Shown one piece after another: positions 17,404-58,802 of a DNA stretch of 64,000 nucleotides; the stretch's first letter is position 1, and every line of letters begins with the position of its first letter. The position numbers were made by a program, and so were the translations under genes. The stretch covers positions 1 through 64,000 of IMG/VR virus record IMGVR_UViG_3300032829_000002. One strand, written 5' to 3'. Under the pieces are notes generated by a model. The model was given only the letters and a program-made list of their open reading frames with translations, searched no databases and was not told the DNA's origin. Source of the stretch: a virus.

Positions 17404-18033
17404 TTACCTCGTGATTGGCTGAAACCGTCGGCCGCGCCGGGGCATGTTGTTTTCGTGCACGCCTCCTTCGATCTCTTGCCGGCGGATCTCCACTTGTCGT
17501 GAGATGACTGTCATGTTCCTGTCAGCGATCTCGAGCATCGCTTTCAAGCGCATCTTGTATTGGGTCATCCGCTGCACCTGGAGAAGTGCTTCTTGGTACG
17601 ATGGATGAACGAGAACCTTGTTCTTCAGCTCGTCGCTGGTGAGCTTCTCGGCCTTCGACAGGAGCTTGTTCTCTTCGTAGAGACCGTCCTTGATGGCGGC
17701 CTCGGTGAGATCGAACGTGTTCTTCGCCTCGAGGAGAGCTACCTCGACGCTTGCGAAGATGGGCGTCAGGTAGTTGAACCACGCAAGCTGCTTGGCGTAC
17801 AGGTCCGTGTACTCCTTGCTGTTCGTCGTGGTCAGGTTCTCCCGCGTGATGACGGGGAGCTCGAAGTTGGGTTTGGGCTGGTCCGTGACTCCCATCTTGA
17901 CGAGCTCCTCTTCGATTGCGGTCTGCGTGGCGAAGGTGTCCGCGATCTTGTCGAGCTTCGACTGCGGTGCGCCCACGCCGAGGGTGATCTGAAGACCACC
18001 CCCGTTGTTCACCGGCGTTCGCTCCTGCGTCAT
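17404..18033 (-). CDS. Coiled-coil protein of the recombination block
   Basis: A 209-residue, mostly helical and strongly charged protein. A conserved-looking core runs from about residue 65 (TRENLTTTNSKEYTDLY) through SKAEKLTSDELKNKVLVHPSYQEAL to a basic C-terminal helix and tail. It starts by ATGA overlap with the dNMP kinase gene. Size and helical make-up are compatible with a recombination mediator (UvsY-like) partner of the RecA-like protein at 22024, but no diagnostic motif is visible. A DNA-packaging or structural helper is equally possible. Confidence 0.55.
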   Translation of the reverse strand: MTQERTPVNNGGGLQITLGVGAPQSKLDKIADTFATQTAIEEELVKMGVTDQPKPNFELPVITRENLTTTNSKEYTDLYAKQLAWFNYLTPIFASVEVALLEAKNTFDLTEAAIKDGLYEENKLLSKAEKLTSDELKNKVLVHPSYQEALLQVQRMTQYKMRLKAMLEIADRNMTVISRQVEIRRQEIEGGVHENNMPRRGRRFQPITR

Positions 18034-19169
18034 CTCCTGCTCCTTTCGAGTACGAGCCCGACGAGGCTGCGCAGGTCATCGAGCGTCGCGTTGTTGTCGA
18101 TCACGGAGTAGAACTTCTCCGGAGGAATCAGGAGTTGTTCAGTCTCACTGGCGTGCTGAGCGGACGCTCCCTGAAGACCAGCACCGGGGCGGTTGATCTT
18201 CCAGACGATGCCGCCTGCTGCACGGATGGCGTCGATCTCGTTGAGGAAGCGAACGTCGGAGATGACGACGTCCGTCTTCGGCTTCACCCAGTCCAATTGC
18301 GACTCGAACTGCGACAGGAAGCGCACGCCGGACTTCGCGTCGTAGTAGAAGCCCCCGTCCTTGAGGATGCGCGCCACGCGCAAGGCGTAGTCGACCCACA
18401 CGTTCGGGTAGCAGTTCCGTCCGTACTCCGTCCCAAGTTGCTGCAAGGCGTACCTCGGTGTGAGGAACATCTCGCTGTTCAATCGGGCGAAGTCCCCGAA
18501 GACCTTTCTGGCTTCCGTATCGTAAGCCACGGCAGCCTCCTCTTCGGTATCGAAGCGCCCCAGGTTCTTCGTCTTACCGAAGGCCGTGAGCTTGGCGCTC
18601 CACTTGTTCCGATCGGTGTCGAGGCCGACCCCCTTGAAGACGGACGTCCCGCCTCGTCGTTTCTCCTCGTTCGCATGGTTCTCTGCGTGCGTGCAGTAGC
18701 GCAGGTTCTTGCGTCGGTTATCGAGCCCGTCTCCGTTGACGTGGTCGATGACCATGCCTTCTGGGGCCTCCCCCATGATCAACTGATGGAGCTTTAGCGA
18801 GTCGGTGGTTCGACGTACGTACGCCGTGCGCTTACCTTGTTCCTTGCGGTTGATGCACCACTTGTGCTCCAGCACGACGGCGAGGTCATCCTCGTCGATG
18901 AGAGTGTGCGCATCGTCGATGGGCAACCAGATCGAACGAGGAGGCGCCGTAGGGTACGTGAAGCGGTCGGAGCGCGGATACCTCTTGTCCGGCTTGTTCC
19001 TCTCCGCGCTCGGCCCCCAGAGCTGCTCGTCGGTGAAGGCGAAGACGTCCTTGCAGATCCGCTTGAGCGGGTCCGCAAGCGCGACCTTCACGAAGCTATG
19101 GTCGCGGACCAAGAAGTCCGCGACCGTGTCCTTTCCGCTGCCCGCTTGGCCGCAGAGTCCGATGATCAT
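18030..19169 (-). CDS. dNMP kinase (T4 gp1-like) interrupted in frame by an HNH-AP2 endonuclease
   Basis: A 379-residue protein starting at the ATG at 19169 (ATGA overlap). Residues 1-79 are the N-terminal part of a deoxynucleoside monophosphate kinase, with a P-loop GQAGSGKDT at 7-15 and RNKPDKRYPR near 57-66. Residues 236-379 continue the kinase (LTPRYALQQLGTEYGRNCYP, then VVISDVRFLNEID and INRPG). Between them, residues about 80-235 are a complete HNH endonuclease (HQLIMG, DHVNGDGLDNR, AENHAN) plus an AP2 DNA-binding domain (FKGVGLDTDRNKW ... FGDFARLN). Removing it leaves about 223 residues, the normal kinase size. The frame stays open across both joints. The kinase would make dNDPs for replication; whether it stays active, and whether the endonuclease cuts, is unknown. 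Confidence 0.85.
   Translation of the reverse strand: MIIGLCGQAGSGKDTVADFLVRDHSFVKVALADPLKRICKDVFAFTDEQLWGPSAERNKPDKRYPRSDRFTYPTAPPRSIWLPIDDAHTLIDEDDLAVVLEHKWCINRKEQGKRTAYVRRTTDSLKLHQLIMGEAPEGMVIDHVNGDGLDNRRKNLRYCTHAENHANEEKRRGGTSVFKGVGLDTDRNKWSAKLTAFGKTKNLGRFDTEEEAAVAYDTEARKVFGDFARLNSEMFLTPRYALQQLGTEYGRNCYPNVWVDYALRVARILKDGGFYYDAKSGVRFLSQFESQLDWVKPKTDVVISDVRFLNEIDAIRAAGGIVWKINRPGAGLQGASAQHASETEQLLIPPEKFYSVIDNNATLDDLRSLVGLVLERSRR
18465..18932 (-). mobile_element. In-frame HNH-AP2 homing endonuclease insertion
   Basis: About 468 bases encoding a full-length HNH_3-type nuclease with C-terminal AP2 domain, inserted without any stop, intron sequence or intein blocks into the dNMP kinase gene. 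The joints lie near PPRS/IWLP and SEMF/LTPR of the protein. Edges are estimated from where kinase and endonuclease similarity change, so they may be off by a few codons. The insertion falls just before the LQQLGTE segment that corresponds to LMQALGT of T4 gp1. Confidence 0.8.
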
Positions 19170-26924: not shown

Positions 26925-27905
26925 TTACCTCTCTATCGGCCCGATGTAGTCCACCGCCTTCGAGACGGCCTCTTGGACTTGTTGTGGGCTCAGGTCGGTT
27001 GGTTGACGTTCTTCGTACTGCACGACGCGCACCCGCAGGGTCCGGGCGAGCCGTCGGCTGATCTGCATGACTCCTTTCTGTCCAGCCTCGTCGTTGTCGA
27101 GAAACAAGTAGACCGCACCACCCATGCGCTCAAGTACCGCGCGCTGGTACGGGGAAAGGAAGGACCCCATCAGCGCTACGGTGTTCTTGAAGCCGGCCTG
27201 CCATGACCACATGCACGCCTTGAATCCTTCGCACACGAGAATGGCAGGTGACTTGTCGAACCAGGACTCGGGGTAGACGCGCTCCGCGTTCCAGAGAATG
27301 TGACTCTTGTCCGTGGAGATGGGCGTCAGTCCCCAAGCCTTGTATTCCTTCTCCGAGTACACTTTGTACCGCGGGTGATCGTCCATCGTCGCTCTGCCAC
27401 TGATGCCGACAAGTCGCCCGAGGATGTCCCGGATAGGAAACGTGATACGGTTGTTCTTCGTGTCGTAGCCGACGTCGAAGTGCTTCAGCGTGTCTTCGGA
27501 GAAGCCCTCCTCGAGGAGGGACAGCGGGCAATGCTCGAAGAGACCGAGACTGCTCTCCTCGAGAACACCGCTGGTCAGGCCGCTGAAGATGCGCTGAGCC
27601 TTGCGAGTCTGCCGCGCTGCACGCTCCTCGATCTGCTCGAGCAACGGCTTGTAGAACGTGTCGATCGTCTTGCCGGGAACGCCGATGTCCCGCAGGAACG
27701 TTCGAAGGTTCCCCTTCTCGTGGCAGGCGTGGCACATCCACAAGCCTGTCGTGAGCGAGATTGCGAACGACGGCGTCTTCTCCGGAAGTCCTGTTTCCGC
27801 CTTCACGTGGAAGGGGCAGATGGCCATGACGTTGTCAGGGCCGCTTCGTCGTGCGCCGTCCAGGAACTTCGAGACGACGTCGAGGACTTCGGTGTTGATG
27901 GTCAT
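26925..27905 (-). CDS. DnaG-like primase (CHC2 zinc finger plus Toprim)
   Basis: A 326-residue protein. The N-terminal zinc site has C30-x2-H33 and C58-x2-C61 (CPFH, CHAC), typical of DnaG zinc-binding domains. The Toprim core is recognisable from VCEGFKAC and FLDNDEAGQKG. It synthesises RNA primers for lagging-strand replication. It is coupled by ATGA overlap to the DnaB-like helicase gene, so the two are made in step. It is about half the length of bacterial DnaG, which is normal for phage primases lacking the large C-terminal helicase-binding domain. Confidence 0.9.
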   Translation of the reverse strand: MTINTEVLDVVSKFLDGARRSGPDNVMAICPFHVKAETGLPEKTPSFAISLTTGLWMCHACHEKGNLRTFLRDIGVPGKTIDTFYKPLLEQIEERAARQTRKAQRIFSGLTSGVLEESSLGLFEHCPLSLLEEGFSEDTLKHFDVGYDTKNNRITFPIRDILGRLVGISGRATMDDHPRYKVYSEKEYKAWGLTPISTDKSHILWNAERVYPESWFDKSPAILVCEGFKACMWSWQAGFKNTVALMGSFLSPYQRAVLERMGGAVYLFLDNDEAGQKGVMQISRRLARTLRVRVVQYEERQPTDLSPQQVQEAVSKAVDYIGPIER

Positions 27906-29314
27906 ACGATGTCTTTGATGTTTTCCTTGACCTCGGAGATGGTGGAGGTCGGAACGTTGTCCTTGTTCATCTTCGTCACGGGCTGCCGCGTGATCGCTTT
28001 CTTCTTCTTTTCGTCTTCGCCACCCTCAGCGTCTTTCTCAGCGGCCTTGGAGATTTCCTTCTCCGTCATCTCGCGGTTGAATGAAAAGTCGACGCAGGGG
28101 CGCGCGTTGATCTTGACTCCGTGGAGCTTGAACTCGCGGGAGCCACCGATGACCAGTGACACGGTCGGATGCTCATCCGATCGATCGTTGATGCAACGAA
28201 TAGCCACCGTTGCGTCTTGTCCGATGGCGTCGGAGTACGCGATCTCGTCGAGCTCCGCGTTGTTGTGCTTCGCCGCGTTGCGGTTGGCTTGCATCGTAGC
28301 GACGAGCGGGATGCGCGTTCCGAGGACCATGTCGCGTGCTGCTCGAGAGATCGAGGCGACACGCTCGTGGTCTTTACCGGGTTTGCCATCGGCGCTCATC
28401 AGGTACAGGCCATCGATGAAGACGATGTCTGGTTGGTACTTGTCGACCTTGCTGCGGACCCACGACATGCTGTCCTGACCCGCAGGAGCGTCACGTCCCG
28501 AGATGCAGATGATGTTGTGGCTACCCTGCGTGGCCTTCGATTGCTCTCTGACCATCATGTAGAGATCGTTGAGCTTCTGCTCGTCTTCTGGGCTCAAGCG
28601 GCCAAGACGAAGCTCGCTGTATGGCAGGCGAGCGATGAAGGCTCCGACTCGGCGGAAGAGCTGCCAAGCGGGCATCTCCTTCGTGTAGACGAGCACCTTC
28701 TTTCCCTGGTCGTATGCGCTCGCAGCCATCGCGGACAACACGAAGGACTTCATGCTCTTCGGTCGACCGTACAGAACGATGTAGTCGTCCTCTTGGATGC
28801 CGAGTGTCTGCTCGTTGAACGGTTCCCATGGCCAGAGCAGCGAGGAGTTGCCTACGCCGTCCTTGGCGTTCTTGTAGCGAAGAAGGAGCTCCTCCATCGC
28901 GTCATCGAAGTGGGAGTCGTAGTTCTTCAACCCGACGTTCTGTAGTCGTTGCAACTCGCTGACGAGGCTGTTGAGTGCCCCCATCGGGTCGACGTCGATG
29001 TCCTCCAGACGGTTGCCGATGTACTCCTTCATTTCGAGTGCGAGACGGTTCTTTCGAACTTCGGTACAAAGCGCCTCCGTCGTCATCGACGGGTCATCAC
29101 AAAATTCGAAGGTCGGGTACGCCTCCTTGATGAGAAAGGGGCCGGGGATGGCACCCTGCGTGTCGTTCGCACGCCAGTAGCCAAGGATGTTGACGAACAG
29201 CCCGCGGCCTTCCGTGGTACGGAAGTCGTTCGGGACGATACCCCAGTCGAGGGCAGCGGCGAGGGCGCCTGTTCGTACGATGCGGCTGAGTAGCTGCATC
29301 TCGATGTGAGCCAT
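27902..29314 (-). CDS. DnaB-like replicative helicase
   Basis: A 470-residue protein starting at the ATG at 29314 with AAGGAGG upstream. The N-terminal 150 residues are a helical domain. The RecA-like core has a Walker A variant GRPKSMKS, a KEMPAWQLFRR segment, Walker B-like PDIVFIDGLYLM and a motif similar to DnaB H3/H4 (VATMQANRNA). Methionine replaces the usual Gly before Lys-Ser in the P-loop. It is the ring helicase of the phage replisome, acting with the primase encoded next. The C-terminal 70 residues are charged and flexible. Confidence 0.85.
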   Translation of the reverse strand: MAHIEMQLLSRIVRTGALAAALDWGIVPNDFRTTEGRGLFVNILGYWRANDTQGAIPGPFLIKEAYPTFEFCDDPSMTTEALCTEVRKNRLALEMKEYIGNRLEDIDVDPMGALNSLVSELQRLQNVGLKNYDSHFDDAMEELLLRYKNAKDGVGNSSLLWPWEPFNEQTLGIQEDDYIVLYGRPKSMKSFVLSAMAASAYDQGKKVLVYTKEMPAWQLFRRVGAFIARLPYSELRLGRLSPEDEQKLNDLYMMVREQSKATQGSHNIICISGRDAPAGQDSMSWVRSKVDKYQPDIVFIDGLYLMSADGKPGKDHERVASISRAARDMVLGTRIPLVATMQANRNAAKHNNAELDEIAYSDAIGQDATVAIRCINDRSDEHPTVSLVIGGSREFKLHGVKINARPCVDFSFNREMTEKEISKAAEKDAEGGEDEKKKKAITRQPVTKMNKDNVPTSTISEVKENIKDIV

Positions 29315-29398
29315 GGTGCCTCCTTGCAATAGTTGTCCTGCGCGCAGCCCTTATACCGGGTGGCGCGCAGAGTTGCGTCGGTCGTCTCGGGGGTAGAA

Positions 29399-34267: not shown

Positions 34268-34386
34268 TCTTGTCCTCCTGGGTCTATGCCCGGTTGTTCG
34301 TTTCCCTTATTCCGCTGCGGCGGCTAACCTTTGCGGTATTCTTGCGGTACCGGCCGTTGGCCGATTACGCTCAGACAGGGAGCGCC
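34268..34386. promoter_or_regulatory. Divergent intergenic region, likely promoters for both blocks
   Basis: These 119 bases separate the leftward replication block from the rightward head block. They contain GGCC-GTT-GGCC, TTGCGGTATTCT and a T-rich patch, which could be operator or promoter elements. A clear sigma70 pair with correct spacing is not evident on either strand. The assignment rests on the divergent layout. Confidence 0.4.
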
Positions 34387-36652: not shown

Positions 36653-37626
36653 CGCGCATGAACGAATCGATGATGCAGTCGTTCGCCGACGAGCTGAAGA
36701 AGCTCGCGAGGGTGAACCCGCGTGTTGGTTCGGCCGCGACGCTCGGTGTTCTGGGGGCGCTCACGGGCGGTGGTGTCAACTACCTGCGGCACCTGACGGG
36801 CGGAAATCCAGAAGAGTCTGGTACCGGTGCGGCGGCACGGGGCGCTCTCGCAGGTGGTCTCGGCGGCTTGGGAATCGGTGCCGCTCTTCCGTTGCGCGCG
36901 CGCCAGGCGGTGTCCCGCTTTGGTCTTCGCGAGCTGCACGGATTGACGGGGCACATGCCCGAGGGGGAGACGCTGCGAACCATGCACGCGGGCGCGTACC
37001 CATCCGAGGTGGCAGCGGTCAAGGCACGCCGGGCCGTTCTCAAAGCGCAGCGAAGTGGTGCTCCCGAAGCGGTCGAGCAAGCGTCCAAAGAGTGGGGGCG
37101 CGCGCAGGATGCGCTCAAGGCGACACGAAGCGCCGAAGAGTGGGGGCTTACGAATCTGCCAGGCGTCGTGAAGTCGATGAAGGCGCACGGTATCCTGCCG
37201 ACCGTCTATCGTGGAGCGCACGCGCAGATCGCAGGAGCAAGTCCCGCGAGCAAGGCGCTGATGCTTGGTCTCCCCGCCCTTGGCGTCGCGCAGGCAGCAC
37301 TCTCACCGGCTCCTGACGGAGGCAAGGGAGAGCAGCTCGGGTACACCACGGGCACCCTCGTTGGAGGTCTCGCGAGTGGCTTGATGCCCTTTGGTGCAGG
37401 GCAGGTTCTCCAAGAAGCGACGGGTCATCTTGGCCGCGCGGCGGGCAAGGGCGTCGATATCGCCGCGGGCAAGCTCTTTCACAAGAACGCACCACCGAAC
37501 TTCCGCTCGTACGGACCGCACCCCGTGGAGGCTAGCGACCTCACCAAGGGACCCGGTCAGTCGACCCCCAGTGAAACGATCATGACGGCCCGTGCTTCGG
37601 GCTATCCGCCGGAGACGCAAGTATGA
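36649..37626 (+). CDS. Gly/Ala-rich membrane-interacting head protein
   Basis: A 325-residue protein. It opens with MQSFADELKKLARVNP, an N-terminal tag like those of other head-block proteins here. Residues about 25-85 hold GSAATLGVLGALTGGG and a Gly/Ala-rich segment (GGLGGLGIGAALP), and a second such stretch lies near 205-255. It has alternating hydrophobic Gly-rich and charged helices, suggestive of a membrane-inserting ejection or pilot protein. It overlaps the portal gene start by four bases. Confidence 0.55.
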   Translation: MTRMNESMMQSFADELKKLARVNPRVGSAATLGVLGALTGGGVNYLRHLTGGNPEESGTGAAARGALAGGLGGLGIGAALPLRARQAVSRFGLRELHGLTGHMPEGETLRTMHAGAYPSEVAAVKARRAVLKAQRSGAPEAVEQASKEWGRAQDALKATRSAEEWGLTNLPGVVKSMKAHGILPTVYRGAHAQIAGASPASKALMLGLPALGVAQAALSPAPDGGKGEQLGYTTGTLVGGLASGLMPFGAGQVLQEATGHLGRAAGKGVDIAAGKLFHKNAPPNFRSYGPHPVEASDLTKGPGQSTPSETIMTARASGYPPETQV

Positions 37627-39674
37627 CGATGGCAGGCGGCATGGGTGTCGGCGGTCCGGCGAACGCCTTCCGCTTCTCGCAGACGCGCGGCCGCATTCAG
37701 GGCAGCCCTGTCCAGGGAGTCAACTACCCCTCGCCGTTCTTCGACGTCGCGCACACCTACTTGCCCGTCACGGTCAAGCAGATGTTCCGTTGGTGCCGGT
37801 ACTACTTCTTGACGAACCCGTTGATCAACGCGGTCGTCTTCAAGATGAGTGAGTACCCCGTCACAGACCTCATCATCGATCACGACGACGCGCGCACCAA
37901 AGATCGCTGGATGGACTTCTTCCAAGACCATCTTCAGTACCGCGCCTTTCAGGTGGAGGTCGGACTCGACTACTTCGCCTACGGCAACGCGTTCATCAGC
38001 ATCGGCTACAACTTCCACAAGTACCTGCGCTGCGCGACGTGCGGTTGGCGCGAGGTTGCGAACCGTTGCCGCAACCACTGGGTCTTCACGAACTACTCGT
38101 TCCGGCTCGCGTGCCCTGGTTGCCACACGACGGGTGATGCGATCGTCACGGACTTGTACTTGAAGAACCCGAGCGGCGTGAAGCTCATTCGCTGGAACCC
38201 GGAGGACATGGAGATCCTCTACAACGACCTCACCGGCGACTACACGTACTTCTACACGATCCCCGCGGTCATCCGGAACGACATCATCATCGGTCGCAAG
38301 GAAGTGGTCGAGACCATCCCGCAGATCTTCATCCAGGCGCTGAAGGAGCAGAAGGGACTCGTCCTCGCGAAGGACAAGGTCTTCCATCTTCGTCGTCCGT
38401 CGCTCGCTACGCAGGATCGAGGATGGGGCATCCCTCTTCTTCTGCCTGTCCTGAAGGACACGTACTACCTTCAGCTCATGAAGAAGGCGCAGGAGGCAAT
38501 CCTGCTCGAGCACATCGTGCCGCTGCGCATCCTCTTTCCGCAGCCTGCCGCCGGTACCGCCGATCCCTTCACGAGCATCAACCTTGTCGACTGGCGCGAT
38601 CATGTCGCGACCGAGATCGGTCGTTGGCGATACGACAACAACTACATCCCCATCCTGCCTTTGCCGGTGGGCAACCAGACCATCGGTGGTGACGGCAAGG
38701 CGCTCATGCTGACGCCCGAGATCCAGCAGTGGAGCGAGCAGATCGTCGTTGGCATGGGAGTGCCCCGCGAGTTCGTGTTCGGTGGCTTGTCCTACGCGGG
38801 GACGAACGTGTCGATGCGCATGCTCGAAAATGCCTTCATCGGCTACGTGTTGCGCCACAAGCATCTGTTCCGATTCGTCATGCAGGAGGTTTCCAACTTC
38901 CTCGATTGGCCGATGGCGAAGGGGCGCTTCAAGCCCTTCAAGATGGCCGACGACATCCAGCGCAAGTCGCTGATGCTCCAGTTCAACCAGCTCAACAAGA
39001 TCAGCGACTCGACGCTGCTCGCGGACTCCGACCTCTCGCAAGAGGAGGAGAACAAGCTGATGCTGAAGGAGACGAAGACGCGTCTCGAAGCAACCAAGAC
39101 GCAGCAGCTCGCGATGGCTGAGATCCAGGGCGAGTCGTCTCTCGTCATGGCCAAGTACCAAGCCAAGGCGCAGCAGGTGCAGCAGCAGGCGATGCAGCAG
39201 GGACCCGCGCCAGGAGAGCCCGGAGCTCAGGACCAGTTGGGGGCAGGAACGCCTGGTGGTCAGCAGGCCGCCGCGGCGGGCGCGCCGGCAGACCTCACCG
39301 ATCCCCAAGCCTCTCCGCTGCCGCCCGGAAGCGCACTCTTGGAAGCACCGACGCCGGATCAAGAGTTCCACAGCGCGATCTCTAGCCGTCTCGGACGCCA
39401 GCAGAACATGCAACAGAGCGGGCAGCAGAACGTCGACTTGCCTAGCATGGCGATGTCGTACGCCCAGCAGATCTCGCACCTCGACCCTGCGATGCAGCAG
39501 ATGGCCCTTCAGAATCTCCAGACCACGAGCCCCGATCTCGCCGCGCTCACGGGGCAGTATCTGAAGCAGCTCCAGAAGGACAAGGAGCAGATCATGGCCG
39601 GCTCGCAGGGGGGCGTCGACATGCGACCGCTTCCTGAGCAGCGATCGCCGCGTAGAATGACGACGCTCGTCTGA
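37623..39674 (+). CDS. Portal protein with inserted zinc ribbon
   Basis: A 683-residue protein. The core (residues about 45-470) has portal-like features: RWCRYYFLTNPLINAVVFKM near 60-80, YFAYGNAFISIGYN, then a stem/wing region through GVPREFVFGGLSYAGTN and a long helix ending near 470. Residues 137-168 are an insert with CATCGW, CRNHW and CPGC, an apparent zinc ribbon. The C-terminal 190 residues are Gln/Ala/Pro-rich and disordered. It forms the dodecameric portal that admits DNA; the terminase is encoded at 57 kb. It starts by ATGA overlap and ends before a bidirectional terminator. Confidence 0.75.
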   Translation: MTMAGGMGVGGPANAFRFSQTRGRIQGSPVQGVNYPSPFFDVAHTYLPVTVKQMFRWCRYYFLTNPLINAVVFKMSEYPVTDLIIDHDDARTKDRWMDFFQDHLQYRAFQVEVGLDYFAYGNAFISIGYNFHKYLRCATCGWREVANRCRNHWVFTNYSFRLACPGCHTTGDAIVTDLYLKNPSGVKLIRWNPEDMEILYNDLTGDYTYFYTIPAVIRNDIIIGRKEVVETIPQIFIQALKEQKGLVLAKDKVFHLRRPSLATQDRGWGIPLLLPVLKDTYYLQLMKKAQEAILLEHIVPLRILFPQPAAGTADPFTSINLVDWRDHVATEIGRWRYDNNYIPILPLPVGNQTIGGDGKALMLTPEIQQWSEQIVVGMGVPREFVFGGLSYAGTNVSMRMLENAFIGYVLRHKHLFRFVMQEVSNFLDWPMAKGRFKPFKMADDIQRKSLMLQFNQLNKISDSTLLADSDLSQEEENKLMLKETKTRLEATKTQQLAMAEIQGESSLVMAKYQAKAQQVQQQAMQQGPAPGEPGAQDQLGAGTPGGQQAAAAGAPADLTDPQASPLPPGSALLEAPTPDQEFHSAISSRLGRQQNMQQSGQQNVDLPSMAMSYAQQISHLDPAMQQMALQNLQTTSPDLAALTGQYLKQLQKDKEQIMAGSQGGVDMRPLPEQRSPRRMTTLV

Positions 39675-44595: not shown

Positions 44596-44720
44596 CAAAT
44601 TCTCCAACGCTGCGTTTTTGCGGCGAACGCGATGTTTTTCGCCATAGTTCTTGTTCCTGCGTCTGCACTCGTCTTGCTCGACGTTCTGCGCGTGGGGTAA
44701 CTTGCTCAAGAGCACCCGCA
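44596..44720. promoter_or_regulatory. Divergent region between the MoxR cassette and the RNA polymerase gene
   Basis: These 125 bases hold the start regions of two divergent units. There is an inverted repeat GCGTT-N9-AACGC at 44612-44630 and a T-rich run. It is likely to contain promoters for both directions, but no canonical -35/-10 pair stands out, which fits use of a phage-encoded or modified polymerase. Confidence 0.4.
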
Positions 44721-47700
44721 ATGGCCTACCTGAACCCCGACGAAGCATTCGAAGACCTGCGCTCCCACGTCGTCGACACCGTGAAGACGCACTTCCCGAT
44801 CCGAGGGCGCACGCTGTCGCTTCACCTCGACAACATCGACGTGGAAGACAACCTTCGCTCGAATGACATTCGCTCGCAGCACCAAGCGAAGATCGACGGC
44901 AAGACGTGGGCGGTGCCGGTCTACGCCACGATGTCGCTGCGCGACAACGACACGAACAAGGTCATCGACCAGAAACGCGTTCGTCTGATGGAGCTCCCTC
45001 GGCCGACCGAGCGCTACAGCTACATCGTCGATGGGCAGGAGTACCAGGTCGACAACCAGTGGCAGCTCAAGCCGGGTGTCTACGTTCGTCGGCAAGACAA
45101 CGGGGAACTGAACGCGAAGTTCAACGTCGTTAGTCGAAGCAGCTTTGACATCATCTTCGATCCCGCTTCGAAGCAGTTCACCGTCAAGTACAAGAAGGCC
45201 AAGCTTCCAATCTACCCGCTCCTCAAGACGATCGGGGTGAGTGACGACGACCTCGAGAAGTCGTGGGGTAAGGAGATCTTCAGCGCGAATAAGAACGCTA
45301 AGCGTACGGCAGGAACACTCGAGCAGTTCTACAAGACGACTACGGGCAAACCGGCGACGTCTCGGAAGGAAGTCGAGGAGTTACTGTTCCACACGATGCA
45401 GGAGTCCAGGCTTCTACCCGAGGTCACGGAACGCACACTCGGTCAGCGATTCGACCACGTGACGGGGGACGCTCTTCATCTTGCAACTAAGAAGCTCCTC
45501 AAGGTGCAGGCGGGCGCTCCAGAGGATGATCGCGACTCTTTGACCTTCAAGAATTTGAGGACGGTTGGCGACTATGCGCAGGACGCTCTTCGTCGCGTCG
45601 CGCGCCCGATTACTCAGAAGGTGCAGCGGCAGCTCAACAGCCAACGCGTCAGCGGCATTCGCGACGTCGTCAAATTCGACGTCTTCAACGAGCCCATTCG
45701 ACAGTTCTTTACGGGAGCCGCAGTCTCTCGAGCAGCCAGTCAGATCAACCCTCTCGAGATGGCGTCTTCAGCGATGCAGACCACGATCATGGGTCCTGGC
45801 GGCATCAAAACGGAGCGCAGTGTCAACAACGAAGCGAAGATGATCAATCCTTCGCACATCGGGTTCCTCGATCCCATCAACACTCCGGAAGGAGAGAAGA
45901 CAGGGGTAACGCTGCGCCTGCCTCTTGGCGTGAAGAAGATCGGCAACGAAGCGAGAATCCCGCTCTACAACATGAAGACTGGGCGTATCGAGGACATCGG
46001 CCCAGACACTTTTGCTGTGAGTCGTGTCGCGCTGCCGGACCAGGTCGAGTGGAAAGATGGAAAGCCCCACGCCACCTCCGGCCGCGTAAAGATGGTGGGC
46101 AAGGGCAACAAGATCGAGGAAGGCAAGCTTCAAGAAGCGGACTACGTTCTGCGGCACTCGAGCCAGCTCTTCAACCTGACGTCGAACCTCATTCCCTTCT
46201 TGGGGAACAACTCGGGCGGCCGCGCGGGAATGGCGAGCCGCCACATGGAGCAAGCGATCTCCCTCGTCAACCGCGAGGCTCCGTTGGTGCAGGTATCGTC
46301 GGGTGTCGCAGCAGAAGGCATCGACACCTTCGAGCGCGTTCTTGGGCATCAGACGTCGCAACGTTCTCCTGTCGATGGGACGGTCAAGAAGCTGCTCAAG
46401 GATGGCGTGATCGTCACGGACAAGAACGGTGTGGATCACGAGGTGCAGACGTACCACTACTACCCGCTCAACGACGCGAAGAGCGTCCTTCACTCGACGC
46501 CGACAGTCAGCGTCGGTCAGCACGTGAAGACAGGGCAAGTTCTCGCGGACACCAACTTCTCCAAGGGCGGAGCGCTTGCGCTCGGTACGAACCTGCGCGT
46601 CTCGTACGTGCCATTCAAGGGGTACAACTTCGAGGACGGCGTGGTCATCAGCCAGGCCGCGGCGGACAAGTTGTCCAGCTTGCACCTGCACAAGCACAGT
46701 CTCGACAAGATCGACAACGTCGTCTTCGATCCCAAGCAGTTCAACCAGCAGCACCCTGGCGTCTTCAACTCGAAGCAGTTCGACAAGCTCGACGACAAGG
46801 GCGTCGTTCGCGTCGGACAGAAGGTTCATCCTGGCGATCCACTGATTGTGGCGATGCGCCCCTTCGAGGTGAAAGATCGAACCGGACTCGCTGCCATGCG
46901 CAAGCACGTACTAGGACACCACACGGACAGCTCCGTTCGTTGGGATTCCGAGTTCGAAGGCGAGGTCGTCGGTGTTCACCGCGGCCCGGACAAGATCACG
47001 GTCCACGTGCGAACCACGGAGCCGATGCAGGTCGGCGACAAGTTGGCGGGGCGATACGGCAACAAGGGCATCGTCACGATGATCTTGCCGAACCACGAGA
47101 TGCCGCACGACAAGAGCGGCAAGCCCGTCGACGTGCTGCTGAACCCGTCGGGCGTTCCCGGTCGTATGAACATCGGGCAGATGCTCGAGACTGCTGCGGC
47201 GAAGATCGCCGAAAAGACCGGCAAGCCCTACGTGGTCAAGAACTTCGATGCGAAGACGCCCGACTACCTCGAGAAGGTGAAAAGCGATCTGAAGCAGCAT
47301 GGCATCAGTGATACCGAGGAGCTCTTCGACCCGATCACGAAGAAGTCTCTCGGCAAGGCCCTCACCGGTCCGCAGTACATGCTGAAGCTCGTGCATCAAG
47401 TCGAGAAGAAGCTCTCGGTCCGCTCCGGCATGAACTTGCCGGGCATGCCTGGCTCCGAGGGCTACGACATGAATCTTCAGCCCTCGAGTGGCGGTCACGC
47501 AGGTGGGCAGAGTCTTGGTGCACTCGGCTTGTACGCGATGCTGGCGCACGGAGCTCGAGCGAACATCCGCGAGATGCAGACGTGGAAGAGCGAAGGCACC
47601 GATCCCCAATCGAACGAGGCCAAGCGTTGGCCTTCACAGCACATCGACGTGTGGAAGGCGATTCAAGAAGGGACTGCGCTTCCTCCTCCGAAGCCGACGT

Positions 47701-50700
47701 TCGCCTTCCACAAGTTCACCGAGATGCTCAAGGGCGCGGGCATCAACATCGAGAAGCATGGCAGCAACCTCGTGCTGTCCCCGTTGACGGACAAGCACAT
47801 TCTGTCGATGTCGGGCGGTGAGCTGAAGGACGCTGGCAAGCTCGTTCGCGCGAAGGCGGACAAGACGGGAGAGCTCAAGCCGATGCCGGGCGGGCTCTTC
47901 GATGAGAAGGTCACGGGAGGGCACGGCGGCACGAAGTGGTCGCACATCAAGCTTGCGGAGCCTGTTCCGAACCCGGTGTTCGAGAACGCGATCAAGAGCT
48001 TGACGGGGCTGACCCAGAAGAACTTCGATGGAGTCGTCTCCGGTGAGCTCGGCGTTCATCCGACGACGTTCAAGATCGTCTCTGCGAAGGATGGAGTCGC
48101 CGGCGGCGCGGGCATCAAGATGCTACTCGATCGCATCGAGGTTCCCGGTGAACTTCAACGAGCTCGTCGAGAGCTGCGCACAGCATCTGCGTCGAAGCTC
48201 GACTCTTCGCTCAAGCGCGTGAAGTACCTCGAGGCGCTTCATCAGCTCGATCTGAAGCCGTCGGAAGCGTACATCTTGCACAACCTTCCGATCTTGCCTC
48301 CGGTCATTCGCCCATTGACGGTGATGCAGGATGGCAACGTGAAGTACGAGGACGTGAACGGGCTCTACGCTCAGTTCGCACAGGTCAACGACAAGCTGAA
48401 GGACCCGGTTCTTCAGGCCAACCTCACGGACAAGCGCAAGCAGAAGCTCCGTGACGACTACTACGATGGCATCAAGGCGCTGGTCGGCGTCGGCTCACTC
48501 AACCGTGAGCGCAAGGAGCGCGGGCTGCTCGAGCAGATCAAGGGGTCGCAGCCGAAGGAAGGGTTCTTCCAGAAGACGCTGATCACCCGTCGACAAGATC
48601 TGACCATGCGCTCGACGATCGTTCCAGAGCCGGCTCTCGGCCTCGACGAGGTCGGCGTTCCGAAGGACGCCGCTCTCACGCTCTTTCGACCGTTCGTCGT
48701 TCGTCAGCTTGTGCTTCAGGGCCTCGCGAAGAATCCGCTCGAAGCGCAGAAGCTCTTGTCCGACGTACACAAGGGCAAGGACGATCCCACGGTGTGGCAC
48801 GCGCTCGAGCACGTCATGAGCGAGCGCCCCGTCCTGCTGAAGCGCGACCCCGCGCTGCACAAGTACTCCGTCCAGGCGTTCAAGCCCCGCCTCGTTCACG
48901 GAAGTGCGATTCAGATCCACCCGCTCGTTACGGGTGGGTACAACGCGGACTTCGACGGCGACACGATGGCGATGTTCGTTCCCATCAGCAGCGAAGCTGT
49001 TCGAGAAGCAGAGAAGATGTTCCCGTCGAACAACATCTTCAACGAGGCGTCCGGCAAGGTCATGTACCAACCGACGCTAGAGAGCGCGCTCGGGCTGTAC
49101 AAGCTGTCCCTCGTCGGGAACGAGACGAAGCATCTCTTTTCTAGCCCTGCGGAGGTCGCAGACGCTCTTCGTCGTGGCGTTGTGAGCTACACCGACGTGG
49201 TGACGATGAAGGGAAAGAAGACGACGCCTGGTCGAGTTCTTCTTGCGTCGGCGCTGCCGGAGGCGATGCAGCAGAAGATGCTCACCGACTTCTCCTTCAA
49301 GATCGACAAGAAAGGGCTCGATTCTTTGCTCACGGACGTGGGCAACAACCATCGACACGAGTTCGGTCGCATCGTCAACGACATCAAGGATATCGGCAAC
49401 GGAGCGTCCTTCGGCCTCATCAAGACGGACCTGGTGAAGGACAAGTGGTTGCCGATCGGCACGCATTCGTTGTCCCTCGATGACGTGACGCCGGACAAGG
49501 CAGCGCGCGGTCGGGTCTTGGGCGAAGCGCAGAAGAAGGTTGATGCGATCCACGCGATGAACATCTCCGAGGCAGAGAAGGAGCGTCGCTCTGTCGATGC
49601 CTGGATCAAGGCGTCCGACGATATGAAGAAGGCGCACACGGACACGATGTCGGCGCACCCGTCGAATTTGTTCCTGATGCAGGCCGCCGGCGTGAAGCCG
49701 AGCTGGGACCAGTACAAGCAGATGGTCTTGGCGCCGATGATTCTCAAGGACTCGGCGGACCGCTTCATTCCGACGCCCGTGACCAAGAGCTACGCCGAAG
49801 GACTCGATCTCGCAGGCTACTGGACGCAGCTCCATGGCGCGCGTCGAGGCGCCGTCATGAAGGTGCAAGAGGTTCAAGAGCCGGGCGCCATCTCGAAGCT
49901 CCTGATGAATACCTCGATGAACATGATGGTCGAGGGGCACGACTGCGGTACCCACAACGGTGTATCGTTGTCCATCGGCGAGAAGGACGTGCACGATCGC
50001 TACCTCGCGCAGGACTTCAAGGCAGGCAACCTGCACATTCCCCGCAATACGCTGCTCACGCCGGACCTCGTCGCTCAGATTCGAGCGGCGGACAAGAACG
50101 CGCGTGTCGTTGTTCGTAGCCCGCTCAAGTGCGAGATGCCGAAGGGCCTCTGCCAGATGGACGTCGGCCCCTCGGTCAACGGCGCTCTGCATCCTCTAGG
50201 TACGAACGTCGGCGTCATGGCCGCGCAGGCAGTTGGAGAGCGCGCGGTGCAGCTCACGCTCAAGAGCTTCCACACCGGCGGCGTGCAGGAGGCTGGTGGC
50301 GGCTCGAAGATCTTGAACCAGTTCGCTCGCTTCGAACAGCTCACCAAGCTGCCGAGGAAGATTCCCAACGCCGCGACGGTGGCGATGACGAGTGGAAAGA
50401 TCGAGCGCATCGAGAAAGACCCGACCGGCGTGAAAATCTGGGTGAACGGGCAGCCGCACCACGTCGGTCGCGACGCTGGCGGCATGCCGCTCCACGAAGA
50501 CTTGCCGCATGCGGACCGTACGGCCAAGAGCTACGTCGGATGGCAGCCGCCGGAGGTTGGTCTGCACGTCGACGCAGGGCAAGTGCTCTCCGATCCGAAT
50601 CGTACGTACGTCAACCCGCACGACTTGTACCGGGCGACGAAGTCGATCGAGAAGGTGCAGAACCATCTCGCCGCCAGCATCTACGACTTGTACAAGGACG

Positions 50701-51107
50701 AGGGGCTTCGTCGTCGCGCGGTGGAGACGCTGGTCAAGTCGATGAGCAACCTCACCAAGGTCCAGGACCCTGGTGACCACCCGCACGTTCTCCGCGGCGA
50801 GTTCTACCCGACGTCGATGATCCGCAAGATCAACGACACGGAGCTCAAAGGCAAGCAGCCGATCTTGCACGAACCGGTTCTTCAGGGAGTAGACATGCTC
50901 CCGCTGTCGCTGCAAGAAGACTGGATGGCCAAGCTTCAGCACCAGCGGTTGCGCAACACGTTGATGGAAGCGGCCTCGATGGGGCTGGCTTCGCACATCC
51001 ACGGAGCTCACCCGATTCCAGGTGTTGCGTACGGCGCCGAGTTCGGCTTGGCTACTTCCACCAAGGCGCATGGAAAGACGCCTGCGGTCGCGCCGCACCA
51101 TTACTAG
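44721..51107 (+). CDS. Fused RNA polymerase beta-beta' subunit (single chain)
   Basis: A 2,128-residue protein with both catalytic subunits of a multisubunit RNA polymerase. The beta half has PINTPEGEKTG near 385, GYNFEDG near 634, GDKLAGRYGNKG near 772, LLNPSGVPGRMNIGQ near 805 and the GGQSLGALGLYAM C-terminal region near 935. The beta' half begins about residue 1030 (GGLFDEKVTGG); it has RSTIVPEPALGL near 1297, the catalytic NADFDGD at 1408-1414 (three Asp for Mg2+) and the trigger-loop region GTNVGVMAAQAVGE near 1827 then LTLKSFHTGG near 1848. The N-terminal beta' zinc-finger cysteines are missing. It transcribes phage DNA. No alpha, omega or sigma gene is seen here; partners may be elsewhere or from the host. 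Its place among virion genes suggests a virion-packaged polymerase, as inferred for other large phages. Confidence 0.95.
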   Translation: MAYLNPDEAFEDLRSHVVDTVKTHFPIRGRTLSLHLDNIDVEDNLRSNDIRSQHQAKIDGKTWAVPVYATMSLRDNDTNKVIDQKRVRLMELPRPTERYSYIVDGQEYQVDNQWQLKPGVYVRRQDNGELNAKFNVVSRSSFDIIFDPASKQFTVKYKKAKLPIYPLLKTIGVSDDDLEKSWGKEIFSANKNAKRTAGTLEQFYKTTTGKPATSRKEVEELLFHTMQESRLLPEVTERTLGQRFDHVTGDALHLATKKLLKVQAGAPEDDRDSLTFKNLRTVGDYAQDALRRVARPITQKVQRQLNSQRVSGIRDVVKFDVFNEPIRQFFTGAAVSRAASQINPLEMASSAMQTTIMGPGGIKTERSVNNEAKMINPSHIGFLDPINTPEGEKTGVTLRLPLGVKKIGNEARIPLYNMKTGRIEDIGPDTFAVSRVALPDQVEWKDGKPHATSGRVKMVGKGNKIEEGKLQEADYVLRHSSQLFNLTSNLIPFLGNNSGGRAGMASRHMEQAISLVNREAPLVQVSSGVAAEGIDTFERVLGHQTSQRSPVDGTVKKLLKDGVIVTDKNGVDHEVQTYHYYPLNDAKSVLHSTPTVSVGQHVKTGQVLADTNFSKGGALALGTNLRVSYVPFKGYNFEDGVVISQAAADKLSSLHLHKHSLDKIDNVVFDPKQFNQQHPGVFNSKQFDKLDDKGVVRVGQKVHPGDPLIVAMRPFEVKDRTGLAAMRKHVLGHHTDSSVRWDSEFEGEVVGVHRGPDKITVHVRTTEPMQVGDKLAGRYGNKGIVTMILPNHEMPHDKSGKPVDVLLNPSGVPGRMNIGQMLETAAAKIAEKTGKPYVVKNFDAKTPDYLEKVKSDLKQHGISDTEELFDPITKKSLGKALTGPQYMLKLVHQVEKKLSVRSGMNLPGMPGSEGYDMNLQPSSGGHAGGQSLGALGLYAMLAHGARANIREMQTWKSEGTDPQSNEAKRWPSQHIDVWKAIQEGTALPPPKPTFAFHKFTEMLKGAGINIEKHGSNLVLSPLTDKHILSMSGGELKDAGKLVRAKADKTGELKPMPGGLFDEKVTGGHGGTKWSHIKLAEPVPNPVFENAIKSLTGLTQKNFDGVVSGELGVHPTTFKIVSAKDGVAGGAGIKMLLDRIEVPGELQRARRELRTASASKLDSSLKRVKYLEALHQLDLKPSEAYILHNLPILPPVIRPLTVMQDGNVKYEDVNGLYAQFAQVNDKLKDPVLQANLTDKRKQKLRDDYYDGIKALVGVGSLNRERKERGLLEQIKGSQPKEGFFQKTLITRRQDLTMRSTIVPEPALGLDEVGVPKDAALTLFRPFVVRQLVLQGLAKNPLEAQKLLSDVHKGKDDPTVWHALEHVMSERPVLLKRDPALHKYSVQAFKPRLVHGSAIQIHPLVTGGYNADFDGDTMAMFVPISSEAVREAEKMFPSNNIFNEASGKVMYQPTLESALGLYKLSLVGNETKHLFSSPAEVADALRRGVVSYTDVVTMKGKKTTPGRVLLASALPEAMQQKMLTDFSFKIDKKGLDSLLTDVGNNHRHEFGRIVNDIKDIGNGASFGLIKTDLVKDKWLPIGTHSLSLDDVTPDKAARGRVLGEAQKKVDAIHAMNISEAEKERRSVDAWIKASDDMKKAHTDTMSAHPSNLFLMQAAGVKPSWDQYKQMVLAPMILKDSADRFIPTPVTKSYAEGLDLAGYWTQLHGARRGAVMKVQEVQEPGAISKLLMNTSMNMMVEGHDCGTHNGVSLSIGEKDVHDRYLAQDFKAGNLHIPRNTLLTPDLVAQIRAADKNARVVVRSPLKCEMPKGLCQMDVGPSVNGALHPLGTNVGVMAAQAVGERAVQLTLKSFHTGGVQEAGGGSKILNQFARFEQLTKLPRKIPNAATVAMTSGKIERIEKDPTGVKIWVNGQPHHVGRDAGGMPLHEDLPHADRTAKSYVGWQPPEVGLHVDAGQVLSDPNRTYVNPHDLYRATKSIEKVQNHLAASIYDLYKDEGLRRRAVETLVKSMSNLTKVQDPGDHPHVLRGEFYPTSMIRKINDTELKGKQPILHEPVLQGVDMLPLSLQEDWMAKLQHQRLRNTLMEAASMGLASHIHGAHPIPGVAYGAEFGLATSTKAHGKTPAVAPHHY

Positions 51108-51110
51108 CTC

Positions 51111-52436
51111 ATGGCGAAACGGTTTCGAACTACGCTGCACCACCGCGCGGGGAACGACCCCGCGGAGATCGTGCATGGTCGTGTTCTGAACGTGAACATG
51201 GTGAACTGGACGGTCGACGTCATCACGCAGTTCGACCGCAAGTACTACTTGGACGTGCAGGTTGCGGCGGCGTACCTCCATTACAACAACGGCGAGGGCA
51301 TCTACGTCATGCCTGAAGTCGGTGCCGTGGTCATGCTTTGCCTGCCGAGTGACAGCTCTCCCCCCTACGTTCAGTCGTTCGTCGCGCCGATGGAGACGGC
51401 CAACGCGACCGCGAAGATGAACGACCCGAATCAGTCCATCGTGACGACGCAGCAGGGAAGCCAAACGGCGAACCCAGACAACGTCGACGATCAAGACGCT
51501 CCTGCGGGTACGCGGTCGCGCGGTGGGACGGTTCCCTATCCGAACGTCGACGCACGCTTCGACGCAGGTCGACCGCCTGCGAAGCCCGGCGACATCTTTC
51601 TGCGAACGCGCGATGGCAACTTCATCACGTTGCATCGAGGCGGCGTGATCGAGATCGGCGCGACGGAAATTGCGAAGCGCATCTACATTCCGATCGGCAA
51701 CAAGATTCTCGATCTCTCTGGTGCCTACGAACACCAGAACGTCGGCGGTTCTGTCTCGTGGGGGATTCAAGAAGGTCCTTCAGTGCAGAATCCGCCCGCA
51801 CAGGAGATGCAGACGTACCGTCTCTACGCCAACGACAAGTACGCCGATCTTCGAATCGCGAAGGGCAAGATCTTCAATCCGGTGGGCGAAGATGCAGGCT
51901 CGAGCGGAGCGGATGCGCAGAGCAACCTTGGGTTCGATCCGATCATCGTCTACGAAGTCACGCTCGCGCAGCAGGGCTTCAAGACCGTGAGCGGAGACGT
52001 CGTCAACGGCGGCGTCGTCAAGCAGGTCTCTCTGCGCTTCTACTTCGACAAGGCTGGCAACGTCTTCCTCCGATCGAAGGGCAGCGCGTACTTCGAGTTC
52101 GGAAAGAAGGTGAAGGTCAGCATCGGAGACTCGTTCGACTTCAGCGCGAAGACGATCTCCATGACCGCGACGGATGGCGCAACGATCAACGGCGGCCCCT
52201 CGACGGAGATCAAGGGGGACATCGTTCGTCTGCAACAGGGCACGACGCCTGTCGCACGACAAGGCGACGCGATTCAAGGAGGCGTCGGACTTGGCATGCC
52301 GCCGCTGGGCGCCCCTTGTATCCTTCAAATCACGGCCGGTCCGATTCAGCCTGGTGTTCCTCTCGCGGGCTTCATCACGATCCCGACGGGAGTACAAGGC
52401 AGCATCATCAGTGGGAACCCGAATTTGCTAGGCTGA
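51111..52436 (+). CDS. Baseplate/tail-spike-like protein (gp5/gpV-like)
   Basis: A 441-residue protein starting three bases after the polymerase stop. The N-terminal 90 residues have an OB-like strand pattern (HGRVLNVNMVNWTVDVITQF, GEGIYVMPEVGAVVMLCLPSD) like the OB domain of phage baseplate hub proteins. A Gln/Asn/Thr-rich linker follows, then strands (GDIFLRTRDGNFITLHRGGVIEIGATEIAKRI) and a C-terminal beta-helix-like region (ATDGATINGGPSTEIKGDIVRLQQGTTP). It is consistent with a central tail spike or hub. No lysozyme domain is seen. Confidence 0.6.
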   Translation: MAKRFRTTLHHRAGNDPAEIVHGRVLNVNMVNWTVDVITQFDRKYYLDVQVAAAYLHYNNGEGIYVMPEVGAVVMLCLPSDSSPPYVQSFVAPMETANATAKMNDPNQSIVTTQQGSQTANPDNVDDQDAPAGTRSRGGTVPYPNVDARFDAGRPPAKPGDIFLRTRDGNFITLHRGGVIEIGATEIAKRIYIPIGNKILDLSGAYEHQNVGGSVSWGIQEGPSVQNPPAQEMQTYRLYANDKYADLRIAKGKIFNPVGEDAGSSGADAQSNLGFDPIIVYEVTLAQQGFKTVSGDVVNGGVVKQVSLRFYFDKAGNVFLRSKGSAYFEFGKKVKVSIGDSFDFSAKTISMTATDGATINGGPSTEIKGDIVRLQQGTTPVARQGDAIQGGVGLGMPPLGAPCILQITAGPIQPGVPLAGFITIPTGVQGSIISGNPNLLG

Positions 52437-56761: not shown

Positions 56762-57006
56762 GCGCGCTTCAGACTGATGTTTTTGACGCACCACCCAGAC
56801 TCCTTCGCGTACTCGCGCAGGTAGGTGCGAAGAGCGTCTCGGGCGGGCTTCGGAATGGAATCCGTCAACCCTACCGTGACCCGAAGTTCTTGATCTTCGG
56901 TGTCGACAAGAACATCCTGACGAAATCCCCCTCCGGCTCTTCCCAAGGAGCCGAGCACGTTCTGCAAGAGCGTGTACGGGTCGTCAGTCTTCTGCGGAGG
57001 AAACAT
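56716..57006 (-). CDS. Antisense small protein between two plus-strand genes
   Basis: A 96-residue minus-strand frame in the 244-base gap before the terminase gene. Its codon usage looks like the neighbours, and its sequence has convincing strands and a helix: QDVLVDTEDQELRVTVGL, PKPARDALRTYLREYAKESG, then CVKNISLKRAYVRFRLRK. Its ATG overlaps the terminase TTG start region, and its end overlaps the previous plus-strand gene by 46 bases. There is no SD. It may be a real small gene, perhaps with a modulating or antisense effect on terminase expression. Confidence 0.5.
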   Translation of the reverse strand: MFPPQKTDDPYTLLQNVLGSLGRAGGGFRQDVLVDTEDQELRVTVGLTDSIPKPARDALRTYLREYAKESGWCVKNISLKRAYVRFRLRKASDKDS

Positions 57007-58802
57007 TGGTTGATGAGACTGTAGAGCAGTCGGAGCCGAGCGTCGACGAGGACCCGCTCGATGACAGCGCCGAGGAGGCTGCCTTCTTTGCGGAGCCTGT
57101 AGTCGTCGAAAACATCTTCGATGGACTCGAGAAGAAGGGGCCTGTCGATCGACGTCTGTCCGTCACGATTTCCCAGTTCACCGAGGCGGCCTTTCGCATG
57201 CCTCGGGAGGATGGTCTTCCCGGCTTCAAGAACTTCTCCTTCGAAGGCCGGCGTCATCTTCGAATGCCGTACGACACGTCGTCGCGACGCATCCTTCTCT
57301 GCACGGGCCGTCAGGTCGAGAAGTCCACTCTTCTTGGCAACCGCGCGATCGCGTACTGCTGCCTGGTCCCCTCTTTCAAGGTCCTCTACGTCTCCCCGAC
57401 GTCGACGCAGACCAAGACGTTCTCGACAGATCGTCTGAAGGAGCCGATCGAGACCAGCGACATTCTGCGTGGCTTCACTAACCGTGCACTCTCGCAGAAC
57501 GTCTTCGAGAAGCAGTTCAGCAACTGGTCGAAGATCACGTTGCGCAACGCCTTCCTCAACGCAGACCGCACCCGCGGTATCCCTGCATGGATGCTACTGC
57601 TCGACGAGTTCCAGGACATTCTCTCGGACAACGTTCCTGTCATCGAGCAGTGCACGGGTCACGCACCCAAGCGATGGCGGCAGTTCGTCTACGCCGGTAC
57701 TCCGAAGAGTCTCGACAACAACATCGAGTACTACCGCGCGCAGCAGTCGACACAGGGCGAGTGGATGGTTCCGTGCGATCATCACGGAGGAGAAGGTGGT
57801 CGCTACTGGAACATCCTCGGTGAACGAAACATCGGCAGGACGAGCCTCATCTGCGAGAAGTGCGGAGGCCAGATCTACGCGCAGCATCCAGATGCGGTCT
57901 GGGCGGGGCAGGTCGAGAACGCGCCGTTCGAGAGCTACCGCATTCCGCAGCTCATGGTTCCGTGGAAGCCGTGGGAAGAGATTCTTCTCGACTACGAGCG
58001 CTATCCTCGTGACAAGTTCTACAACGAGGTTCTCGGGCTCTCGTACGACTCAGGCATGCGACCGCTCACGATGGCGCAGGTGCAGGCGTGCTGCCGGTCG
58101 GACATCACGATGCATCCGGACACTCTCGAGAAGTACAAGGAGAAGGCCGTCGACAATCCAGTCTTCGCCGGTCTCGATTGGGGTACGGGCGAGAACACGT
58201 ACACCGTGCTGACACTCGGCACGTACGTAAACATGAAGTTCCGCGTCATCTACATGCATCGTTTCACGGGCGTCGAGCTCGATCCGCAGCTCCAGCTTCG
58301 TACGCTCGATGAGATCTTGAACGACTTCCGTGTGCTCATCATCGGCGCCGACTACGGTGGCGGCTTCGACCGCAACGACCACCTCACCCGCAAGTTTGGT
58401 CCGAACCGTCTTGCGAAGTTTCAGTACATGGCGCGTGCCAAGCGCAAGGTCGAGTTCGACGCGAAGTTGCGCCGCTACAAGGTCTTTCGTACCGAGGTGA
58501 TGAGCGACATCTTCAACGCGATCAAGCGCAGCAACGTCTTCGAGTTTCCTCGCTGGGAGGAGTTCAAGCAGCCGTTCGCGCAGGACATGTGCAACATCCA
58601 CTCGGAGTACAACGAGACGCTCCGAATGATCCAGTACGACCACGGCCCCGACAGGCCGGACGACTCTTTCCACTCCCTGCTCTACTGCTTCCTCGCCTCG
58701 TGCATCAAGTTCCCGCGTCCCGACATCATCGCGCCGCTGCGTGAAGATCAGAACCGCGGGCCGATGATGTCGGTCTACTCTGGCCCGGTGAATCAGGGCT
58801 AG
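57006..58802 (+). CDS. terL: Terminase large subunit (ATPase/nuclease)
   Basis: A 598-residue protein starting at TTG 57006 with GGAGG five bases upstream. The ATPase domain has a Walker A variant GRQVEKST at 101-108, and Walker B LLLDEF with Asp200 and Glu201. A zinc-like CDHH...CEKCGG cluster lies near residues 257-285. The RNase H-like nuclease domain has GLDWGTG with Asp391, a second acidic group near GADYGGGFD, and DDSFHSLLY near 553. It packages DNA into proheads through the portal. The first 40 residues are acidic and likely disordered. It ends in a shared CTAG with the convergent regulator gene. Confidence 0.9.
   Translation: MVDETVEQSEPSVDEDPLDDSAEEAAFFAEPVVVENIFDGLEKKGPVDRRLSVTISQFTEAAFRMPREDGLPGFKNFSFEGRRHLRMPYDTSSRRILLCTGRQVEKSTLLGNRAIAYCCLVPSFKVLYVSPTSTQTKTFSTDRLKEPIETSDILRGFTNRALSQNVFEKQFSNWSKITLRNAFLNADRTRGIPAWMLLLDEFQDILSDNVPVIEQCTGHAPKRWRQFVYAGTPKSLDNNIEYYRAQQSTQGEWMVPCDHHGGEGGRYWNILGERNIGRTSLICEKCGGQIYAQHPDAVWAGQVENAPFESYRIPQLMVPWKPWEEILLDYERYPRDKFYNEVLGLSYDSGMRPLTMAQVQACCRSDITMHPDTLEKYKEKAVDNPVFAGLDWGTGENTYTVLTLGTYVNMKFRVIYMHRFTGVELDPQLQLRTLDEILNDFRVLIIGADYGGGFDRNDHLTRKFGPNRLAKFQYMARAKRKVEFDAKLRRYKVFRTEVMSDIFNAIKRSNVFEFPRWEEFKQPFAQDMCNIHSEYNETLRMIQYDHGPDRPDDSFHSLLYCFLASCIKFPRPDIIAPLREDQNRGPMMSVYSGPVNQG

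Follow-up and report, generated by a model that had tools for sequence, protein, structure and literature searches.

A single-chain bacterial-type beta-beta' RNA polymerase in a clade of tailed phages, with a candidate sigma factor and promoter

When a phage gene reads as a whole RNA polymerase (RNAP) beta subunit joined to beta' in one chain, does it encode an intact enzyme of the phage's own, and with which partner and from which promoters would that enzyme work? The question is raised by a stretch of 64,000 nucleotides (the window), positions 1 to 64,000 of the 120 kb IMG/VR virus record IMGVR_UViG_3300032829_000002 (contig G000, by whose coordinates positions beyond 64,000 are cited). The original prediction had proposed a single uninterrupted beta-beta' frame of 2,128 residues, similar to the cellular enzyme and encoded among virion genes. 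The frame is indeed open across all 2,128 codons, and is divided as follows:

44721-51107 (+), single-chain beta-beta' RNA polymerase, 2,128 residues, in one open frame with Pfam domains
44721-47753 (+), beta part, residues 1-1011, ending in GINIE like the E. coli beta C-terminus
47754-47798 (+), junction, residues 1012-1026, linking the C-terminal end of beta to ILSMSGGEL of beta'
47799-51104 (+), beta' part, residues 1027-2128, lacking zinc site 1
48942-48962 (+), catalytic NADFDGD, residues 1408-1414, also a site of intein-like insertion in relatives
50160-50162 (+), codon for Asp1814, which by alignment replaces the fourth zinc cysteine (E. coli beta' C898)

Motifs of beta (PINTPEGE at residue 385, GYNFEDG at 634, GDKLAGRYGNKG at 772 and LLNPSGVPGRMNIGQ at 806) are followed in order by those of beta' (NADFDGD at 1408-1414, GTNVGVMAAQAVGE at 1827 and SFHTGG at 1849), with a further beta' motif, RSTIVPEP, at 1297. 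The conserved Pfam domains of both subunits likewise stand in order within the one chain, with matches above cut-off for Rpb2_6 (1e-60), Rpb1_2 (6e-30), Rpb1_5 (3e-15) and Rpb2_3 (1e-8), and with Rpb1_1 scoring 28.2 bits, under its cut-off of 39.7. AlphaFold models of residues 1-1085 (predicted local distance difference test, pLDDT, 80) and 1060-2128 (pLDDT 78) find their best structural matches in bacterial beta chains (best E 3e-72) and bacterial beta' (best E 2e-55), respectively; domains, motifs and the fold of both modelled halves thus bear out the likeness to the cellular enzyme. Since the first alignable beta' segment, ILSMSGGEL (IRSWSFGEV in E. coli), begins about 15 residues after GINIE, there is practically no linker. 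To judge from its sequence, the chain unites a complete beta with a beta' that is nearly complete, and the core is predicted to be catalytically intact.

Residues were compared in an alignment with 16 phage rows, with contacts in E. coli numbering. The catalytic Asp triad of NADFDGD is kept in all 16 rows, as are seven checked active-site residues of beta, save that H1237 is Lys in two isolates. The predicted loss of the N-terminal zinc cysteines of beta' extends to the whole alignment, the first zinc site being missing in 16 of 16 rows; the second retains three of its four cysteines in the window and all four in the other 15 rows. Rifampicin contacts are mostly replaced in the phage rows (in the window Q513R, F514A, D516S, H526S, R529Q, S531T, I572T and R687E), so that resistance to the drug is predicted. 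The flap is without its tip: a bacterial segment of 22 residues is shortened to VHRGPDKITVHV, a plain hairpin in the AlphaFold model. Several one-chain relatives have polymerase open reading frames (ORFs; L037, L041, L049, L050, L058 and L066) extended in frame by insertions of 338-522 residues whose ends look intein-like, situated at PINTPEG, GDKL and NADFDGD, which is to say after window residues 391, 775/786 and 1414, and some hold two such insertions at once.

Fused rpoB-rpoC genes, with beta joined to beta' in one chain, are known from a few bacteria such as Helicobacter and Wolbachia, which favours the idea that the gene is a chance capture of ordinary cellular rpoBC, a degenerate copy or an artefact of assembly. 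Against this stands a second contig, G001 (184,953 bases), which represents the same phage at 99.99% identity: both 1-78313 and 78154-120082 of G000 match it, and its polymerase gene is 100% identical to the window copy. The ends of G001 overlap by 160 bases, so the map closes into a genome of about 184.8 kb. A search of IMG/VR yields 65 loci at 40-100% identity, about 56 of which hold the enzyme as one uninterrupted ORF; with the G001 copy, these argue against a stop or frameshift between the halves and rule out an assembly join or pseudogene. The neighbouring genes are those of a phage, the catalytic residues are intact, and the phage clade stands apart from bacterial sequences in a quick tree of beta' only, which takes in 24 bacterial and 7 eukaryotic-type viral sequences, lacks archaea and has some long branches: the fused family and isolates fall on one side of a branch with support 79, and the bacterial and eukaryotic-type viral beta' on another with support 99. 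The present results thus refute a cellular, decayed or misassembled origin, which retains next to no probability.

The enzyme is no singleton; it is a member of a large phage clade. A wider search matched 465 relatives, of which the best 80 (L269-L347 among the loci) were examined for layout. These encode the polymerase in one, two or three genes: as one full beta-beta' chain; as beta plus N-terminal beta', the C-terminal part of beta' being a separate gene; or as beta plus a short beta' piece, followed by further genes. No locus with both parts among these best 80 of 465 has beta separate from the start of beta', so that joining of the two is common to the whole clade seen here; because cuts never fall at the joint, it looks like one old event, with later cuts elsewhere. 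The same joint is found in cultured phages at about 31% identity, namely Salmonella phage Arash and Vibrio phages D69, D148 and D181, in which the gene likewise comes just after the portal gene; they differ from the window in that the remainder of beta' is a separate gene (the cut in Arash and D69 lies about 85 residues past NADFDGD) and the promoter-like signal described below is not enriched. Matches in phage collections include unannotated records that resemble bacterial contamination (Listeria, Staphylococcus and similar contigs). The beta sequence of a Cobetia phage aligned poorly, with low conservation, and its alignment was dropped.

The clade resembles the mReC group (multi-subunit RNAP-encoding Caudovirales; Weinheimer and Aylward 2020, PMC7481178), of which, by its published description, the present family is probably a part: in both, uncultivated tailed phages have alignable beta and beta' with NADxDGD, RNAP genes amid virion genes, and a clade apart from cellular RNAP. 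They differ in that the main text of that study has beta and beta' subunits, with fusion mentioned only for crAssphage, and describes neither sigma factor nor promoter. The major capsid protein (MCP) family reported there, PF07068 (MCP was detected in only 8 of the 97 published contigs), had no match here and none in the controls either, so that this search is uninformative as a test of membership. RNAP1 of rep_vMAG_21 (PMC10159854, Nat Microbiol 2023), placed at the base of the mReC clade, is similar in listing 'beta and beta prime' under one gene name; in the passages of that paper that concern it, the context is diversifying selection, and sigma, promoter and fusion are not discussed.

Genes of the alpha and omega families had no match in 14 phage genomes, although the control genomes gave matches. 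The genome does encode a candidate partner for the core:

G000:115450-116196, sigma70-family protein, 248 residues, with Pfam regions 3 and 4 above cut-off

Residues 32-187 of this protein align with SigA/HrdB, and region 2 is covered only through that alignment, not by Pfam PF04542. PF04542 missed the gene in most phages; Pfam regions 3 and 4 together with direct protein search then recovered it, and relatives are present in 17 of the 18 phages searched, the lone phage without a match being G009, a 171 kb record that may be incomplete. Some relatives have a second, more canonical sigma70-family gene (L036, G003:9320-9844; L019, G010:157921-158433; L022, G004:129499-129597).

A promoter-like signal, GCAA-N19-ATAAG, was discovered de novo from words over-represented between the genes of G001. 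That genome has 16 sites at gaps of 18-20 and none at other gaps from 10 to 30, whereas shuffled sequences have 0-2, and the peak is sharp at 19 in five genomes. The 16 contigs scanned contain 174 sites in total, compared with 28 matches to the reversed pattern and 22 at gaps of 24-26; when the discovery genome is left out, the counts in the remaining 15 are 158 as opposed to 26 and 22, respectively. Scanning seven genomes with a weight matrix (consensus GCAA N15 cGGG-n-ATAAGA, often followed by TG and a ribosome site) recovers 70 sites, and the start codon mostly lies 45-54 bases after the beginning of GCAA. The spacing is that of a sigma70-family promoter, but the boxes differ. The signal is retained between phages whose polymerases share 40-66% identity and in genomes differing in GC content, and stands directly ahead of the sigma gene itself in G001 and G004. 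A word-pair scan anchored on ribosome sites was noise outside G001, the shuffled expectation being near zero, and was not used. Examples in the window are as follows:

34306-34334 (-), GCAA-N20-ATAAG site ahead of the leftward replication-gene block, mapped from G001:43980-44008
29350-29376 (-), GCAA-N18-ATAAG site ahead of the DnaB-like helicase gene 27902-29314, mapped from G001:48938-48964
44650-44677 (-), weak copy of the signal, found by matrix scan, facing away from the RNAP gene at 44 bases from its start

The sites are located in non-structural and replication regions. By our own reading of the site list, the sense strand of the structural block (portal to sheath) carries none of the 70 sites in the seven genomes, and all eight matrix sites inside that block are antisense. 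A site pointing outward next to the RNAP gene recurs in six of the seven genomes, 42-116 bases from the RNAP start, and is weak in G001. Consensus sigma70 promoters are no commoner than in shuffled sequence in any of the seven genomes. A non-structural stretch of 20 kb had none where 3.0 were expected, and the surroundings of the RNAP gene had one where 2.6 were expected. The scarcity of such promoters that the original prediction ascribed to a virion polymerase is thereby supported; that account did not extend to a sigma70-family factor and a candidate promoter of the phage's own. Terminator-like hairpins number 30 against 15.5 expected at G001 120001-140000 (L078), and several elsewhere in G001 end in TTCTTCTTAGCCC.

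The placement of the polymerase gene among virion genes, as predicted, is evident from the genes around it:

37623-39674 (+), portal, 683 residues; homologous to Arash gp204, which is annotated as portal, and with a weak PHROG portal match (E 3e-4)
51111-52436 (+), protein of 441 residues, 3 bases past the RNAP gene, with homologs in 55 loci
57006-58802 (+), terminase large subunit (TerL), phrog_675, E 2e-51

The order is portal, a divergent group (HNH protein, AAA ATPase), RNAP, the 441-residue protein, others, TerL, and, past the end of the window, matches to a major head protein (G000:66270) and a tail sheath (G000:76151), a structural setting that indicates a phage of myovirus type. RNAP has a portal homolog on its upstream side in 58 loci, Arash and D69 included, and TerL on its downstream side in 48. 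Neighbours of 441, 204, 747, 312 and 142 residues had no family match above cut-off. To the left are a PolA-type DNA polymerase, the DnaB-like helicase and a UvsX-like recombinase, as well as a deoxynucleoside monophosphate kinase match at window 18030-19169 (-) into which an HNH endonuclease domain (residues about 120-234) is inserted in frame.

How, then, would the enzyme be used? What is observed is one ORF, intact catalytic residues, a conserved sigma gene, and a conserved signal with its placement; from these we infer that core, sigma and signal belong together, when the enzyme is made, and that it is packaged. We lean towards a reading in which the one-chain core and the phage sigma would form a holoenzyme acting at GCAA-N19-ATAAG, the core being made late and packaged in the virion. 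Linkage of beta to beta' would replace the assembly role of alpha and omega; the core and the sigma70-family factor, whose pairing is suggested by their co-occurrence, would constitute a two-component holoenzyme; this would read the bipartite promoter, driving non-structural and replication genes; and the virion would deliver the packaged polymerase with the DNA to serve early-type promoters. Because the RNAP gene lies in the structural block and has no sense-strand GCAA promoter, the polymerase is probably made late, and since the signal stands on other genes, the enzyme should be either virion-borne or made earlier in some other way. By analogy with N4, phiKZ and P23-45, the chance that it is carried in the virion would be somewhat better than even. 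A fuller version, in which packaged core, sigma and own promoter form a self-contained system that needs no host RNAP even at the outset of infection, with the joint formed once and beta' cut repeatedly, is put forward more tentatively.

Several observations weigh against the preferred reading. The flap tip, which in bacteria is the docking place of sigma region 4, is truncated, and the contacts that the clamp helices make with sigma in bacteria are not conserved, so that sigma binding would have to differ from bacterial docking; the phage sigma could instead serve the host polymerase. Arash, D69 and G008 have no excess of the signal, though each has the polymerase and a sigma relative (that of G008 is among the most divergent), and no clear late-promoter motif was found ahead of the MCP, portal, RNAP and sheath genes. 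As the genes were called by a simple in-house program, the label 'early-type' is guessed from their position and size. Intergenic sigma70-like sites at G001 97916 and 101697 (-), TTGACA-17-TTACGC-like and TTGAAC-17-TAGGCT, could be immediate-early promoters read by the host.

These two sites would suit a scheme without packaging, in which the earliest genes fall to host RNAP, and the phage core and sigma, synthesised once infection is under way, go on to read either the GCAA promoters (middle genes) or late genes. Cobetia and Yersinia phages with divergent separate subunits have them in a metabolism/replication block, adjoining a sigma gene in the Cobetia phage, and the sigma gene here, being itself under the GCAA signal, needs some earlier activity. 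This scheme appears unlikely: here the gene follows a portal gene in 58 loci and precedes TerL in 48, the lack of a sense-strand GCAA site ahead of RNAP is the arrangement expected of a virion polymerase, and sigma70 sites overall are no more frequent than chance. Less likely still is that the phage sigma steers host polymerase to the GCAA promoters while the phage polymerase serves a separate (late) promoter. Many phages do use their own sigma with host RNAP, T4 gp55 and SPO1 gp28 being examples, and with the core's flap tip cut short and sigma region 4 conserved, the sigma might prefer the host core; however, a sigma in 17 of 18 phages and a signal kept across 40-66% identity and varying GC content argue for a phage-encoded reader.

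The one-chain enzyme differs from other phage polymerases. The RNAPs of phiKZ/AR9-type jumbo phages (PMC7598289) are also related to cellular RNAP, and one of the two is packaged in the virion, but beta and beta' are each encoded in several genes and are far more divergent. The crAss-like and P23-45 virion RNAPs (PMC10770324) are single-chain two-barrel enzymes as well, the P23-45 one being a tape-measure fusion that the virion delivers, but are separate and very divergent, without readily recognisable bacterial beta/beta' sequence.

Since the clade resembles the mReC phages, this kind of polymerase is already known, although no fused beta-beta' phage enzyme of this type was found in the open-access literature beyond the works cited. 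New here are the sigma70-family gene, the finding of no alpha or omega genes in the genomes searched, the loss of rifampicin contacts and the promoter-like signal; as far as that literature was searched, no description exists of the single chain as a trait of the clade, of repeated re-cutting of beta', of a conserved partner sigma or of the shared signal. The phage probably reads its own genes with its own machinery: a minimal one-chain RNAP of bacterial type, apparently without alpha and omega, plus a candidate sigma and promoter. This combination makes sigma-dependent initiation by a two-protein enzyme directly testable, and the replacement of most rifampicin contacts makes an experiment with the drug informative. 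The clade, which is deep, abundant and has cultured members, bears on how cellular RNAP entered viruses and on how common host-independent transcription is outside the jumbo phages.

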